Shown here piece after piece: positions 9,759 to 51,655 of a DNA stretch of 57,886 bases (position 1 is its first letter; each line of letters begins with the position of its first letter). The position numbers and the translations under genes were made by a program. The DNA is from a virus: positions 1 through 57,886 of IMG/VR virus record IMGVR_UViG_3300021403_000001; one strand, written 5' to 3'. A model generated the notes under the pieces. That model was not told the DNA's origin, made no database searches, and was given only the letters and a program-made list of their open reading frames with translations.

Positions 9759-10827
9759 TTATGCAGCCTTCCGGCTTTCTTCAGCAAGACGCGGAGCACC
9801 CCGCGCGAGTTTGAGAATGTTTCGGGCCGCGTTTACGTCGCGGTCATGGCTCGCCACAATACGAACAATCCCAAACTCTTATTCCAAGACCTGCGATACC
9901 TTTCGGCCTCTCCGGTGGCAGGCCGCCACAGCAAGAGCAGGCTTGGGTCGTAAACCTCTCGTCCACCTCTAGGAACCTGCCCGCTTTGTAGCGCAGCATG
10001 TTTCGAAAGGCGGACCATCCAGCATCGAGAACGGATTTTGCTGCTCTCGTTTGCGCTAGATTTTTTGCATTCACATTCCCAACCGCGATGAACGCGTATT
10101 CGCGGGCAAGATGTGTAGAAAGTTTGTGGTGAAAATCTCTGCGCGCGTTGGCTATCTTGATGTAGATCGCTTTGGCGCGACGCTTATTGGAGGCCCGTTG
10201 CGCTGTCGCCAACTGATCGGCCCATTTGGCTAGATGGCGAGGGTTTTCAATAATCTGTCCAGTCGATAGGGCGGCTAGAGACTTTAAGCCCAAATCGATG
10301 CCTATCTCGCCGCGCGCAGGTTGCGATTGGTCGCCAGCTTCGGCAAAGAGAATGACGTACCATCGTCCAAGGGCGTCTTCGGTGAAAGCACCACCCTTTG
10401 CCGTAGTTGGAACGGGTCTTCCACCTACCCAGAAGTAAAGTTTCTTGCCAAGATAGACGATACTATTGCCCTCAATTCGTCGACTTTGACTCTGAAACGG
10501 TATCCAGCCGCGAGCACGCTTGCCGCCAAAGCTAGCCCTAAAACTCGGACATTTTCGGTTCTTGTCGCGCGACTGTACAAACTGTCTGCAAACCTCTTGC
10601 ACCGTCTGTTGGTGGATTCCGAGATCGGCGCCTACGCCCTTGCATTGTCGCGCGAAGTCAAATTTCGTCGGCCAAGGGCGCTTCGGTGCTCCGGCAAGAT
10701 ATCGATCTTGGATGTCTCGCTGTGCTGCAGAACACCAATTCCACACTTGGTTGACTGCATAGGCGTGTCGAGTCAGTGCCCGGCGCGCGTGCTTGTCCTT
10801 GATGCGATATTTGTAGGCCTTGAGCAC
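9759..10827 (-). pseudogene. tnpB: TnpB-family RNA-guided nuclease, frameshifted at the C-terminus
   Basis: From a GTG at 10827 (AAGAGGG upstream) the frame runs 327 residues to a TGA at 9844. It has the N-terminal LKAYKYRI start, RuvC-I GIDLGLK (Asp178), a VGNVNAKNL segment where many TnpBs have Glu (Gly250 here, as in a subfamily that may use a shifted Glu such as Glu290 in VDERFTT) and a zinc ribbon, Cys297-x2-Cys300 and Cys321-x2-Cys324. The RuvC-III block HDRDVNAARNIL follows in another frame, ending at a TAA at 9759, so an indel of two lost bases or one gained base has separated it. No tnpA or transposon ends are seen. It lies inside the virion operon. Confidence 0.85.
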
Positions 10828-10835
10828 ATGCCCTC

Positions 10836-11243
10836 TTATGCGGCGGCGTCTGCGCGTGTGCGGGCGATGAGTTCTCGCAGCTTCCGCTTGTTTTCGCCGT
10901 CGATGAAATAACCAAGCCCCCATTTGCAGGAGACCTTCACACCGTACTTGCGAAGTCTTACCCGAAGTTTGCAGATGAATACGTCGATGATCTTGGGGTC
11001 CGGCTCCTTGTCCCAAGTGTTCGGCATGCCGGAATAAATCGCGAGCAACGCTCCTTCTCGCGTGATGATCTCACGCTTCAACAGCATCGTGAGCAGCGCG
11101 CTCATATTGCGGGGAATGCCGAACTCTGGCGGCAAATCCACCTTCATGCCGAGCTCCCGCTCGAGCAATTCGATCCGGTCAAGCAACGGCTCGCAGCCTG
11201 CAGGCCATTCCCGATCATCAGGAACGATTGAGGGCGAGATCAT
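10836..11243 (-). CDS. OmpR/CtrA-type winged-helix regulator without receiver
   Basis: 135 residues. The C-terminal 80 residues follow the effector-domain pattern of response regulators: a REGALLAIYSGMP helix, a DVFICKLRVRLRKYG recognition helix and the wing KWGLGYFIDGENKR. The N-terminal part has a short leucine-rich helix rather than a phosphoacceptor domain. It overlaps the start of its upstream paralog (11240-11614) by four bases. Likely a phage-encoded DNA-binding regulator, perhaps of late transcription. Targets are unknown. Confidence 0.8.
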   Translation of the reverse strand: MISPSIVPDDREWPAGCEPLLDRIELLERELGMKVDLPPEFGIPRNMSALLTMLLKREIITREGALLAIYSGMPNTWDKEPDPKIIDVFICKLRVRLRKYGVKVSCKWGLGYFIDGENKRKLRELIARTRADAAA

Positions 11244-38320: not shown

Positions 38321-38896
38321 ATGGACGCCATCCCAGATCTTCCGCCATACACCGTCCTGGAGAACGGCTACATCCATGGAACGTGGTTCTGTGGGCGTCC
38401 GACCAAGAAGTATTACGGATCCTTCCCCTATTCCTTCTGGCCGCGCGCTCAGCAAGTCCTCCGGCCATGGGGAACGCTGCTGCATTGGTTCAGCGGCCTT
38501 GAGCAGCCCGAGCCCGGCATCACCACGGTTGACGGCAACCCCGAGGTGACGCCCTCTGTTGTCTGTCAGGGCACGAACCTGCCGTTCGCCGATTGCACCT
38601 TCGACGCCTCGTTTGCGGATCCTCCCTATTCGCCCAAGGATTCCGAGCGCTACGGGTTGCCCTATCCGTCCGCCACGAAGGTCATCGCCGAGCTGGCGCG
38701 CGTCACTAAACCGGGCGGCAAGATTGGTCTGCTTCACGAGTTCATTCCGCCGACCGGCGGAAAGCGGTGCTTGCCCGTCAAGCTACTCGGAATCATCGGC
38801 GTGATGAACGGCCCACAGAAACGGATCCGGCTCTTTGCGATCTATCGCAAGCTGGCGACGCAAACAGATTTATCCATCGGTTTGGGCGAGAAATGA
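38321..38896 (+). CDS. DPPY-motif methyltransferase-like protein
   Basis: 191 residues from the ATG at 38321. FADPPYSPKDSERYG near residue 103 is the DPPY-type catalytic motif of amino-methyltransferases, and ARVTKPGGKIGLLHEFIPPT follows like strand 5. The SAM-binding motif I is less clear, in a GTLLHWFSGLEQPEPGITT region. It could modify an adenine or cytosine amino group or a small base precursor. It is coupled by ATGA overlap to the PAPS-reductase-like gene, suggesting a two-step modification. Confidence 0.7.
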   Translation: MDAIPDLPPYTVLENGYIHGTWFCGRPTKKYYGSFPYSFWPRAQQVLRPWGTLLHWFSGLEQPEPGITTVDGNPEVTPSVVCQGTNLPFADCTFDASFADPPYSPKDSERYGLPYPSATKVIAELARVTKPGGKIGLLHEFIPPTGGKRCLPVKLLGIIGVMNGPQKRIRLFAIYRKLATQTDLSIGLGEK

Positions 38897-39642
38897 AACC
38901 CCGCACCCTCATTTGGTTTTCGACCGGAGCCGCCAGCGCGGTCATGACGCAGCTTATGCTTCGCGAGGACCGAGAGACGGCGATCGTGGTCCGGTGTGAG
39001 ACGGGCAACGAAGACCCGGACAATTACCGCTTTGAGGCCGACGTGATGCGCCACCTCAACACGTCGATTACCGTCCTAAAGTCTGACGAGTTCGATAACG
39101 TCCGGGACGTGTGGAAGCGCGAGCGCTACATGGCCGGCATCAATGGCGCCTCCTGCACGCGTGCCATGAAGGTTGAGCCGCGCCTCGCATTCCAGCATCC
39201 GACAGACCGCCATGCCTTCGGCTACACGGCCGACAAGGCGGACAAAGAACGCTTTAAGCGCCTGCAAGAGAATTACCCCGAGTTGGTGGTTCGCGCGCCT
39301 CTGATCGAACAGGGGATTAACAAGGCCAATTGCTTGGGCAGGATAGAGCGTTGGGGCATCGCGCTTCCCCGCTCCTACGCGATGGGCTTTCCGAACGCCA
39401 ATTGCCTGCAAAGCGGATGCGTGAAGGGCGGCTTGGGCTACTGGTCCCGGTATCGCCATTACTTTCCGGAAGCGTTCGCCAAGACCGCCGCCCAGGCTCG
39501 CGAGATCGGCGCGCGGCTGGTCAAATACAAAGGCGAGCGCATCTTCATTGACGAGATTCCAGCCGACTATCCGATGATAGACGCGACCCTTCCGGCCTGC
39601 GATTTTCTTTGTCACTTGGCTGAGGCGGAGCCCGTCGAATGA
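38893..39642 (+). CDS. PAPS-reductase-like ATP pyrophosphatase
   Basis: 249 residues from the ATG overlapping the methyltransferase stop. The first strand and loop IWFSTGAASAVMTQL is a PP-loop variant common in phages. Then RCETGNEDPDNYRFEADVMR, GASCTRAMKVEPRLAFQH, AFGYTADKADKERFKRLQEN, and a Cys-rich NANCLQSGCVKGGLGYW site follow the phage PAPS-reductase-like family (PF01507). Known relatives activate a substrate by adenylation and may add sulfur or modify nucleic acids; the exact reaction here is unknown. Confidence 0.82.
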   Translation: MKPRTLIWFSTGAASAVMTQLMLREDRETAIVVRCETGNEDPDNYRFEADVMRHLNTSITVLKSDEFDNVRDVWKRERYMAGINGASCTRAMKVEPRLAFQHPTDRHAFGYTADKADKERFKRLQENYPELVVRAPLIEQGINKANCLGRIERWGIALPRSYAMGFPNANCLQSGCVKGGLGYWSRYRHYFPEAFAKTAAQAREIGARLVKYKGERIFIDEIPADYPMIDATLPACDFLCHLAEAEPVE

Positions 39643-45377: not shown

Positions 45378-45539
45378 ATGACAGAGGACGAACGCGAAGA
45401 ATTCATCTATAGCTTGTTGGGCGAATTTCAAAGGTCGCTTGGCTCAATTACAGATGAGCAGAAATATGCTTTCATCGCCGGAGCCAGATCGGCTTTAGTC
45501 ACCCTTGAGGAGCGCGAAAAGGCTGCGCGGAAACGATGA
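45378..45539 (+). CDS. Hypothetical small protein (53 aa)
   Basis: 53 residues, acidic then helical: DEREEFIYSLLGEFQRSLGS, TDEQKYAFIAGARSALVTLE. Short phage proteins with G-x-R-S-A-L are common. ATGA overlap with the next gene. Confidence 0.6.
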   Translation: MTEDEREEFIYSLLGEFQRSLGSITDEQKYAFIAGARSALVTLEEREKAARKR

Positions 45540-45736
45540 CTGAACGCGAAAAAATCGATCCCGATATGATTACTCACTTGCAGCAGTTCATCGCCATTGC
45601 GGAGACTTGCCACCGACAGCGGGAGCCTTCGTATTCGTGGCACGTTCTCGACTGGATGTCCTACAAATCGCAATGCCGCTGGCCGTTGGTCCGGAAGTGT
45701 GACCGTCTCATCGATCCTTCGATGATTGTTCCTTAA
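45536..45736 (+). CDS. Hypothetical small protein
   Basis: 66 residues. PDMITHLQQFIAIAETCHRQ then WHVLDWMSYKSQCRW. No family recognised. Its stop lies two bases before the outer stem of the first structured RNA, so that RNA would be in its 3' untranslated region. Confidence 0.55.
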   Translation: MTEREKIDPDMITHLQQFIAIAETCHRQREPSYSWHVLDWMSYKSQCRWPLVRKCDRLIDPSMIVP

Positions 45737-45738
45737 CG

Positions 45739-45879
45739 GTGAGTGACCGATGACTTTGCTCGGAGCGAGCGGGACGCTCGGGCTTCGCCAAGAACAAGTT
45801 GCCTCCCCCGTTATCTTGGCTAGTGGGAGAGGCGGTCGGGTCGCGCCCGGCCTCCGAGCCCACTAACTGAGTCGCTCAC
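45739..45879 (+). ncRNA. Structured RNA, copy 1 (phage RNA family)
   Basis: Core 45758-45859: P1 GCTCGGA with TCCGAGC, P2 CGAGCG-GGA-CGCTCG, P3 GCCAAGA with TCTTGGC enclosing a 20-base loop, a pseudoknot of loop bases 45801-45809 with 45825-45833 (eight pairs and one C-A mismatch), and P4 GGTCGGG-TCGCG-CCCGGCC. An extra outer stem pairs 45739-45747 with 45871-45879. Copy 2 at 49094-49197 has the same fold with different stem sequences. Plus strand is preferred because both copies follow plus-strand genes, but G-U/C-A balance does not decide strand. Confidence 0.8.
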
Positions 45880-48880: not shown

Positions 48881-49078
48881 ATGGGCACCGATGGCGGCTA
48901 CCGAGAGCGGTTCGATCGAGTCCTTAAAGAGAAGGAACTTATTGCCGTCCGCCGATGGGACGGCAACAATGGTTGGGGACGAACAACGCTGAACGAACGG
49001 CGTTGGTTCGCGGCTATCATGGTCGGTTGGCTTCTTGTCGTGATCGTCTTTGGCTTCTACAAGATATTTGCTGGCTGA
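48881..49078 (+). CDS. Small membrane protein
   Basis: 65 residues with GAGG before the ATG. A polar, basic N-terminus (YRERFDRVLKEKELIAVRRW) and a C-terminal hydrophobic helix (IMVGWLLVVIVFGFYKIFAG). It is a plus-strand gene among minus-strand lysis and tail genes and is followed 15 bases later by the second structured RNA. Confidence 0.6.
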   Translation: MGTDGGYRERFDRVLKEKELIAVRRWDGNNGWGRTTLNERRWFAAIMVGWLLVVIVFGFYKIFAG

Positions 49079-49093
49079 GAACCGCTGCGGAAA

Positions 49094-49197
49094 CACAGGA
49101 TAGCGAGCGGAACGCTCGGGTTTACTAGGGCGAGATCGGGTCCCGCGAAATCCTAGTTAGTTTGCGAGACCCAGGCAGATCGTGCCTGCCTCCTGTG
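49094..49197 (+). ncRNA. Structured RNA, copy 2 (phage RNA family)
   Basis: P1 CACAGGA with TCCTGTG, P2 CGAGCG-GAA-CGCTCG, P3 ACTAGGG with TCCTAGT enclosing a 20-base loop, a pseudoknot of loop bases 49138-49146 with 49164-49172 (eight pairs and one C-A mismatch), and P4 GGCAG-N7-CTGCC. Positions of every element match copy 1 (7 bp, 6 bp, 7 bp, loop 7+9+4) but most paired bases differ. The 3' end lies seven bases before the stop of the minus-strand tailspike. Confidence 0.8.
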
Positions 49198-49204
49198 GCC
49201 ATCC

Positions 49205-51655
49205 TTACCGATACGCAGTGACGCTGTACGTCCCGTTCGCGATGTTGCCGGAGGCATAGCGGAGTCGGACGTTGGTGATCGTCGTCGCGGAAAAGTAAGC
49301 GCCGCTGGCGCCGAAGCTTATGTACCCTCCCGCCGTGTTATCCTTGTACGTCGACTGCCAGTTCCACGCCTGAAAGTCTCCGGCGTTGCTCTGTGGCGTC
49401 AGATTGATAATGGCCGACATGAAAAACCCGACCACTTGAGCGCGACATATCACCGGCAACGCAGCGGCGCCTCCGGCAATTCCGCCTTGGGTGCCTCCGA
49501 ACGAAGTGAATCCTCCCCCATAGCTATAATTTGCTGCCGTCGTGTCATAGCTCACGCCGCTATTGGTCGACACGATCATCTGCAGGTCTTGGTTCGCCGT
49601 CACCGGATCGAAACTGTTGAGGCGGATTTCGACGAACCGCGCGCCGGACGGGATAGGAATATCGACGGTCGCAACTGCCGAGACCGTCGTGACGGACACG
49701 GCTTGGTATGGCGAAGTGGAGAAGCCAGCGCTTGCATTTGGGGCGGCGGCCAGCGCGGTCGCAACGCCCGTCCCGAGGCCGGAAATGCCGGTCGAGATCG
49801 GCACGCCAGTGATGTTGGTGCCCGTGCCCGACGACGGCGTTCCGAGCGCACCACCGTTTACAACGTGCGATCCAGCAGTGCCCGTGTTTACTTTTAGTGC
49901 CGCCTCGACGCCGCTTCCGAAGCCTGTTCCGTTTAGCTGAATCGTCCCGGCTAGATTTACCGTCGTGCCCGTGAGCTGCACGGTCGAGCCGCGAAGCTCC
50001 ATACTCTTCAAGGTGTTGTTGGCGTCGTTGATGGAGCCAAACGAAACGCCGTCCGCGAGGTTAAAATTGGAGCCAACATAGAGATTTTTATCAGCAGCGA
50101 CATGACAGACGAACGGAACGCCCGTGATGCTGGTTGAGGACGCTCCGCACAAAATCGACGTGCTGCCGAATAGTGCAGTGAAGCCGCCCGTCGTCGGCGT
50201 CGTCGCGCCTACGGTGCCATTGATGTTGATGCTGGCGGTGCCGGTAAGGTTCGTGACGGTGCCGGAGGACGGCGTCCCGAGCGGCCCCCCGCTATAGAGC
50301 AGCGTTCCGCTCGCGGCTGGAAGTGACCACGCAAATGACGACGCGCTCGCCGGTGCCGACAGCGTGCTGAGGCCGCCTGCAGCTTGCCCGAACTTCACGC
50401 TGCCATCGCGCGATCCGGCATAGCCCGTGTAAATCGAACTGAGCGATGGCGCCTCGGTGTTCGACCAGAACTTGGTGAGGCCGTCGATTTCTAGCGTGGC
50501 GCTAGCATTGGTATTGTTGATCGCAGGACGCCCGGCGCTAGCGCTATATCCACTCAACCCGTAGAAATTCGAGTTTACGATCTTGTAATTGGAGTCCGCA
50601 TTCGATCCGTCGATGAAAAGCTGATTTGTGCCGAAGCCAAGACCGGAAAAATTAGCCGTGCGAAGCCATGCTACGTTATCGAACAGGACGTTCGCCTTGT
50701 GCGCAGTATTGGTGATCCAGATGTCGCCCTGCCCGCCATTGCCCTCGAACGACATTCCAGAAAATAACACGGTGCCGTAGCCGTCGCCGGGATCGACCAG
50801 CCGAATGCCGTAGCAATTGGTCGTCGTTCCGCCGCAGGCCGTGGAGCCGTTGTACTGGATTGATCCGCCGTACCAGGAGAGCGAATTCGGGTTGGTGACC
50901 TGAAGGCCGAACGTGGCGTTGTTCGATACCGTGGTCGAATAAAACGCTATCGAATTCGTGCTGGTAATGGTCGATGCGCCGTTGAAGCGCAGGCCGCCAT
51001 TATTGAACCGGAATTGCGAGCGCAAAAATTCTGACTGTTCAACGTCGGTCGCGTCGAACGCCAGGTCGAGCGCTTCGATATCCACGTCGTCGATATGGAA
51101 AAACGCCGCCTTGTTGATCTGAAGGCCGATGCTGCCTGCGTTGATCGCGCTGGCATTGCCTACAATCCGCAATCCCTTGACCATGAAATCGCTTTCAAGG
51201 GCGGAAGCATTGCCGGTGTATTTGATGAAGATGCCGGTGAACGTGGTGTTGATAATGCAGGACCGGCCCTGACCGTCGCCGAGCAATTGAATCTTGCCCT
51301 GAAACCGCGTGGTGATCGCGGAAAGATCGACGGTAAGCTGATTGGTTGTCTTGTAACAGGCGGTTGAAGCCGGGAAATACACCGTTCCACCGCCCGCGGT
51401 AATGGCTGCGGCTATCGCATTGTTTATGGATGTTGTGTCATCAGACGTGCCGTCACCCTTCGCAGAAAACGGCGACGATTTGACATTGATAAATGGCACG
51501 CCAAGATTAGCGGCCGCCCCGGCGGCGGTTGACGCGCCCGTACCCCCTTTCGGTATTGAAAGGGGCGATGTGCCGGGGTTCACTTGGGCAACAGCGGGCG
51601 TTGCCAACAGCAATCCAAGCAGGGCAAGTAGATAGAAATTGTTCGCTGGCTTCAT
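49205..51655 (-). CDS. Tailspike-like protein with beta-helix and signal-like start
   Basis: 816 residues from the ATG at 51655; a GTG three codons earlier is possible. A hydrophobic N-terminus (FYLLALLGLLLATPAVAQ) resembles a signal peptide, then the phage fibre motif PKGGTGASTAAGAAANLG. A pectate-lyase-like parallel beta-helix follows (VKSSPFSAKGDGTSDDTTSI, GGGTVYFPASTACYKTTNQL), then repeated NGGALGTPSSGT-type segments. It is probably the receptor-binding or depolymerising spike on the gp10-like hub. Signal peptides are unusual for virion proteins. Confidence 0.78.
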   Translation of the reverse strand: MKPANNFYLLALLGLLLATPAVAQVNPGTSPLSIPKGGTGASTAAGAAANLGVPFINVKSSPFSAKGDGTSDDTTSINNAIAAAITAGGGTVYFPASTACYKTTNQLTVDLSAITTRFQGKIQLLGDGQGRSCIINTTFTGIFIKYTGNASALESDFMVKGLRIVGNASAINAGSIGLQINKAAFFHIDDVDIEALDLAFDATDVEQSEFLRSQFRFNNGGLRFNGASTITSTNSIAFYSTTVSNNATFGLQVTNPNSLSWYGGSIQYNGSTACGGTTTNCYGIRLVDPGDGYGTVLFSGMSFEGNGGQGDIWITNTAHKANVLFDNVAWLRTANFSGLGFGTNQLFIDGSNADSNYKIVNSNFYGLSGYSASAGRPAINNTNASATLEIDGLTKFWSNTEAPSLSSIYTGYAGSRDGSVKFGQAAGGLSTLSAPASASSFAWSLPAASGTLLYSGGPLGTPSSGTVTNLTGTASININGTVGATTPTTGGFTALFGSTSILCGASSTSITGVPFVCHVAADKNLYVGSNFNLADGVSFGSINDANNTLKSMELRGSTVQLTGTTVNLAGTIQLNGTGFGSGVEAALKVNTGTAGSHVVNGGALGTPSSGTGTNITGVPISTGISGLGTGVATALAAAPNASAGFSTSPYQAVSVTTVSAVATVDIPIPSGARFVEIRLNSFDPVTANQDLQMIVSTNSGVSYDTTAANYSYGGGFTSFGGTQGGIAGGAAALPVICRAQVVGFFMSAIINLTPQSNAGDFQAWNWQSTYKDNTAGGYISFGASGAYFSATTITNVRLRYASGNIANGTYSVTAYR

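Follow-up and report, generated by a model that had tools for sequence, protein, structure and literature searches.

The window analysed here, the whole stretch of 57,886 bp, is an IMG/VR virus record that carries terminase, portal, recombination, integrase and tail/lysis genes. The late genes lie on the minus strand, and a block of small plus-strand genes stops near 46.2 kb. Two related structured RNA elements were located on the plus strand, copy 1 at 45759–45862 (104 nt) and copy 2 at 49094–49201 (108 nt), both measured from an acceptor-type stem to a terminal CCA and each supported by covariation with the other and by a match to a descriptor of one half of a tRNA. Both lie just 3' of short plus-strand genes, as the first-pass annotation had reported. 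The gene upstream of copy 1 is a 66-aa ORF (45536–45736) with 22 nt between its stop codon and the start of the RNA, and the one upstream of copy 2 is a 65-aa ORF (48881–49078) with a hydrophobic C-terminal stretch and a corresponding gap of 15 nt. Neither has a family match, no relatives of either were found in INPHARED, and none of the 65-aa ORF in IMG/VR. Copy 2 occupies the gap between the 65-aa ORF and a convergent tail-spike gene, with no plus-strand operon downstream, and no intrinsic terminator (a hairpin followed by a T run) was found 3' of either copy. The surroundings therefore name no partner, and they give no support for a riboswitch acting on a downstream gene.

Two other genes of the record may be mentioned. 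A phage-borne phosphoadenosine phosphosulfate reductase-like gene (38767–39642, plus strand) adjoins the integrase. Within the head-gene operon there is a TnpB/Cas12f-like gene (9844–11016, minus strand; OrfB_IS605 PF01385, Cas12f1-like TNB), the frame of which stops early while ...HDRDVNAARNIL goes on in another frame; its RuvC region reads FIAVGNVNAKNL, with Glu missing at the usual place. This gene could be a decayed or co-opted TnpB. It is directly followed by a gene that has a ribosome-binding site of its own, so that no adjacent right-end RNA is obvious.

Architecture of the two copies

The helices described in the first-pass annotation are all present in both copies, position for position, but the element had been drawn too short and should reach the CCA at 45862 and 49201. 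The acceptor-type stem (P1) of copy 1 is formed by CTCGGAG (45759–45765) and CTCCGAG (45852–45858), with an optional eighth pair of G45758 with C45859; the original assignment, GCTCGGA/TCCGAGC, does pair, but the stem is better placed one base inward, where 8 bp are possible. In copy 2 the same stem consists of CACAGGA (49094–49100) and TCCTGTG (49191–49197). The joining segment J1/2 is absent in copy 1 (0 nt) and 3 nt long in copy 2, and leads to P2, which stands in the place of a D-type arm and reads CGAGCG GGA CGCTCG in copy 1 (45766–45780) and CGAGCG GAA CGCTCG in copy 2 (49104–49118). The near-identity of P2 noted earlier is thus borne out, the stems being identical and the loops differing by one G/A exchange.

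P3 pairs GCCAAGA (45787–45793) with TCTTGGC (45814–45820) in copy 1, and ACTAGGG (49124–49130) with TCCTAGT (49151–49157) in copy 2, and encloses a large loop that is split 7+9+4 in both. The central nine positions of this loop form the pseudoknot, in which GCCTCCCCC (45801–45809) pairs with GGGAGAGGC (45825–45833) in copy 1 and GGGTCCCGC (49138–49146) with GCGAGACCC (49164–49172) in copy 2. Its length of nine positions and the shared C.A mismatch at position 6, both part of the original description, were confirmed. P4 begins 0–1 nt after the pseudoknot and constitutes the T-type arm, GTCGG GTCGCGC CCGGC (45835–45851) in copy 1 and GGCAG ATCGTGC CTGCC (49174–49190) in copy 2. The CCA follows at 45860–45862, with C at the discriminator position, and at 49199–49201, with G at that position.

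A competing pairing is also available. In each copy loop segment L2 is complementary to L3, the sequences differing between the copies: GUUA/UAGU in copy 1 (45810–45813 with 45821–45824) and GAA/UUU in copy 2 (49147–49149 with 49161–49163). Their pairing lengthens the pseudoknot helix and excludes P3, and the resulting extended hairpin appears in the minimum free energy (MFE) structure of either copy; in these models it may represent a folding intermediate or a switch. Outside the acceptor-type stem, the flanks 45739–45747 and 45871–45879 of copy 1 can pair over 9 bp, and 49083–49089 and 49214–49220 of copy 2 over 7 bp. This outer helix, P0, was not counted as part of the element, random flanks pairing equally well with p = 0.03 (copy 1) and 0.22 (copy 2).

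Covariation, strand and homologue searches

The first-pass annotation claimed that P1, P3, P4 and the pseudoknot have diverged in sequence and still pair, and this claim stands, with 10–13 double changes depending on the alignment and none of 500 shuffles reaching the observed count. In the two-row alignment, for which one T of copy 2 was duplicated to keep register, 13 of the 34 pairs have changed on both sides and one on a single side, and the only unpaired position is the shared C.A. Shuffles gave a mean of 6.5 double changes (0/500 attained 13), and as a control, sliding the partner columns by 1–3 positions left just 0–2. With unedited sequences extended to the CCA and aligned without forced bases, double changes were seen in 10 of 32 pairs (0/500 shuffles). 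By helix, this unforced alignment gave three double changes and one wobble change in P3, three double changes in the pseudoknot helix and two in P4; P2 is invariant and therefore contributes no covariation evidence. The MFE z-scores, from -1.8 to -3.2 over both strands, are mildly unusual, and at this modest level single-sequence folding is by itself not decisive.

The pairing also carries information on the strand. Read on the plus strand, the two copies together contain 5 G.U pairs and 3 mismatches (L2:L3 included), the mismatches being the shared C.A in each copy and a further one where L2 and L3 of copy 2 extend the helix. Read on the minus strand, they contain 2 G.U pairs and 6 mismatches on the same basis. 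The C.A of the pseudoknot becomes G.U on the minus strand, so the pseudoknot by itself leaves the strand unobvious, and the plus strand is favoured because of the balance of G.U pairs and mismatches over all helices together with the CCA end. From the covariation, the two copies are almost certainly paralogues of a real, plus-strand, pseudoknotted RNA.

Relatives of this RNA were sought widely. An exact 18-mer of P2 had no match in IMG/VR, and looser P2 patterns there gave, among the matches listed, chance hits with the rest of the fold absent. Searches of INPHARED and PLSDB by blastn found no homologue. Across 84,980 GTDB species genomes the P2 18-mer occurred in 88 stretches, none of which had the P3, pseudoknot or T-arm on inspection; the best score among them with covariance model R1 was 27 bits, against 112–115 bits for the two copies. 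A second covariance model, R3, scored copy 1 at 116.9 and copy 2 at 125.5 bits, both being its training copies. In 1,972 genomes and records, most of them from Alphaproteobacteria, no match of R1 or R3 in the large sets reached E ≤ 0.001, while the positive control on the virus record itself worked. Phage relatives reached via the endolysin, TerL, a virion protein and a 186-aa gene carry no copy of the RNA. A free-form structural descriptor lacking the tRNA marks was discarded as too loose, shuffles attaining equal scores. In Bradyrhizobium aeschynomenes, two contigs start with the same ~66-nt repeat (1–67 and 1–66), present in that genome just as these two contig-end copies and containing TAGCGAGCGGGACGCTCGGG, which it has in common with the P2 region; the repeats were rejected as homologues, as they share 20 nt and not the rest. 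The proposal of an RNA family therefore holds for two paralogues in one phage, but no third member was found. The first-pass annotation had considered that a lack of further homologues would count against the element, and so far there are none; with two-sequence models, sampled genome sets and matches as listed, this is an absence of evidence and weighs little.

Resemblance to and departures from tRNA

The outer half of the RNA, comprising the acceptor-type stem, T-type arm and CCA, went unremarked in the first-pass annotation and is in our view the most informative feature. In both copies a 7-bp acceptor-type stem abuts a 5-bp T-type stem with a 7-nt loop, followed by one base and CCA, and the T-type loop has U55, C56 and G57 and is closed by G53:C61. 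A strict descriptor (acceptor 7 bp, T-type arm of 5 bp and 7 nt, G53:C61, U55, C56, R57, N73, CCA) matched twice in the window, at copy 1 and copy 2, and not at all in 40 Markov-shuffled windows, figures that overstate independence because the rule was written once the cloverleaf-like layout had been noticed, T54 and A58, failing in both copies, were omitted, and the copies are homologous. With the same reservation, the strict descriptor found three real tRNA genes (Leu, Asn, Glu) and copy 1 itself over 2.17 Mb of other fetched loci, and a version permitting one acceptor mismatch gave one further match in related phages, with 6 of 7 pairs. When the loop rule was removed, ~0.3 matches per strand were expected and two were found, again the two copies. 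A CCA one base 3' of a 7-bp helix of comparable span occurs in 3 of 194 cases in the window, and a MAFFT alignment made without forcing has no gaps from column 71 through the CCA. On this evidence the outer half is probably tRNA-like in both copies.

There are departures as well. The T54:A58 reverse-Hoogsteen pair, the most conserved T-loop pair of tRNA, is absent, these positions being G54/C58 in copy 1 and A54/U58 in copy 2. Neither copy has an anticodon arm with a 7-nt loop and U33, and its place is taken by P3 and the H-type pseudoknot. The D-type arm has 6 bp and a 3-nt GRA triloop, with the usual D loop absent. ARAGORN at default settings called no tRNA or tmRNA at either copy; with a relaxed score and an intron allowed, it proposed copy 2 at 49094–49201. 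The Rfam models for tRNA, tRNA-Sec, tmRNA and viral tRNA-like structures (TLS) matched neither copy. The first-pass annotation had recognised no known family and proposed a comparison with Rfam, which over all families gave nothing at the gathering threshold (copy 1 had chance-level matches at E>1, copy 2 none). A tmRNA was ruled out by C3-G70 in both copies (there is no G3.U70) and by the lack of a tag reading frame. Judged by sequence, neither copy is a true tRNA, and the RNA is probably a tRNA look-alike that would be unable to join in protein synthesis.

Interpretation and known systems

Taken as a whole, the observations are best accommodated by paralogous, phage-encoded, plus-strand, non-decoding tRNA-like RNAs that are matured by host enzymes and have a decoy or partner role, a statement that we consider slightly better supported than not. 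The outer half, ending in an encoded NCCA, would mimic the acceptor stem and T arm of a tRNA, with a rigid 6-bp hairpin at the place of the D arm and an H-type pseudoknot at that of the anticodon arm. The RNA would be transcribed 3' of a small accessory gene. Cleavage by host RNase P would take place 15–22 nt past the stop codon, just 5' of the acceptor-type stem, and the CCA would be exposed by the host's 3' processing; this would yield a stable RNA of ~105 nt and shorten the mRNA at its 3' end. Amid stems that have otherwise diverged, the P2 stem is the same in both copies, which suggests sequence-specific recognition of P2, and the RNA could then engage a protein that reads the top half of tRNA together with this conserved arm. 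Its target might be a host enzyme that acts on tRNA, or a defence/toxin protein, for which it would serve as decoy or competitor; alternatively, it might partner a phage protein. More tentatively, and with somewhat less than even confidence, we propose a new dsDNA-phage family of non-decoding tRNA mimics, in which a pseudoknot takes the place of the anticodon arm, maturation falls to RNase P and the CCA processing of the host, and two diverged versions share an invariant D-type arm; such mimics would probably bind, or act as decoys for, a host protein that works on tRNA and may be anti-phage. If true, this would give a phage tRNA mimic that can be tested directly, and tRNA gene finders would be overlooking such RNAs.

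As a rather unlikely alternative, the element could be a structured sRNA encoded by the phage, or a 3'-UTR element (a stabiliser or protein-binding site), with no relation to tRNA. In favour of this, the fold and its place behind ORFs are established, T54/A58 and an anticodon arm are lacking, and ARAGORN and Rfam were negative. This reading would make the cloverleaf-like layout and the CCA coincidental. However, the strict acceptor/T-arm/CCA rule picks out the two copies and otherwise just true tRNA genes, and a plain 3'-UTR element leaves the same-register CCA of both copies unexplained. It is improbable that the RNA is a regulatory switch in which P3 plus the pseudoknot alternates with the extended hairpin to govern the stability of the mRNA from the upstream gene or its readthrough. 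Such a switch would account for the L2/L3 complementarity kept by different sequences and for the extended hairpin in each MFE structure, but L2:L3 amounts to just 3–4 pairs, with 3 G.U across the two copies, and there is neither an intrinsic terminator 3' of the copies nor anything on the plus strand downstream of copy 2.

The presence of a TnpB/Cas12f-like gene with no obvious adjacent right-end RNA raises the idea that the copies are guide-RNA scaffolds acting in trans for its product, and phage-encoded, TnpB-derived regulators (TldR) provide a precedent (PMC13418256). This is very improbable, as the tnpB locus has no R1 match above noise, the copies lie 35 kb from it, the sequences 3' of copy 1 and copy 2 have no match elsewhere in the window, the TnpB-like frame is broken near its C-terminus, and P1 closes the RNA, whose 3' end is CCA rather than a guide. 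Equally hard to credit is a put-like RNA antiterminator or a single-stranded-DNA (attC/origin-like) element: two diverged copies per phage do resemble HK022 putL/putR in number, and the strong stems would form in ssDNA too, but copy 2 has no plus-strand operon downstream, the G.U pairs favour a plus-strand RNA, and by inspection the attC core motifs and single long hairpin are absent.

If the copies are non-decoding tRNA-like RNAs, as we favour, several known systems invite comparison. tRNA-like structures are well established in plant RNA viruses and in tmRNA. To our knowledge, no dsDNA-phage RNA has been described in which an acceptor/T half of tRNA type and an encoded CCA go together with a pseudoknot standing where the anticodon arm would be, and limited searching of the literature returned no dsDNA-phage example of this combination. 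HK022 putL and putR likewise form a related pair of structured RNAs within a single temperate phage; put RNAs are situated early in operons and have no pseudoknot or CCA, whereas the present RNAs sit behind genes and have both. The likeness to the upper half of tRNA comprises the 7-bp acceptor-type stem, the adjoining 5-bp T-type stem, the 7-nt loop with U55, C56 and G57, G53:C61 and NCCA; unlike tRNA, the phage RNAs lack an anticodon arm and T54:A58, have a 6-bp D-type arm with a triloop, and contain an inserted pseudoknot. tmRNA (ssrA), which has been characterised as upper-half tRNA (PMC3985003), similarly replaces the lower half with pseudoknot-bearing RNA, but is ~350 nt long compared with ~105 nt, and the phage RNAs have C3-G70 rather than G3.U70, no tag frame and no default tmRNA call. 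The mascRNA of MALAT1 and menRNA are tRNA-like RNAs that RNase P frees from the 3' end of longer transcripts (PMC11693755), a mode of release that may apply to the phage RNAs as well, although mascRNA and menRNA keep a small cloverleaf and derive from eukaryotic nuclear lncRNAs. The 3' tRNA-like structures of plant RNA viruses (TYMV, TMV) share a tRNA-like fold, a pseudoknot and a CCA behind coding sequence; the copies have no match to the Rfam TLS models, belong to a dsDNA phage, and use the pseudoknot to replace the anticodon arm instead of building the acceptor arm.
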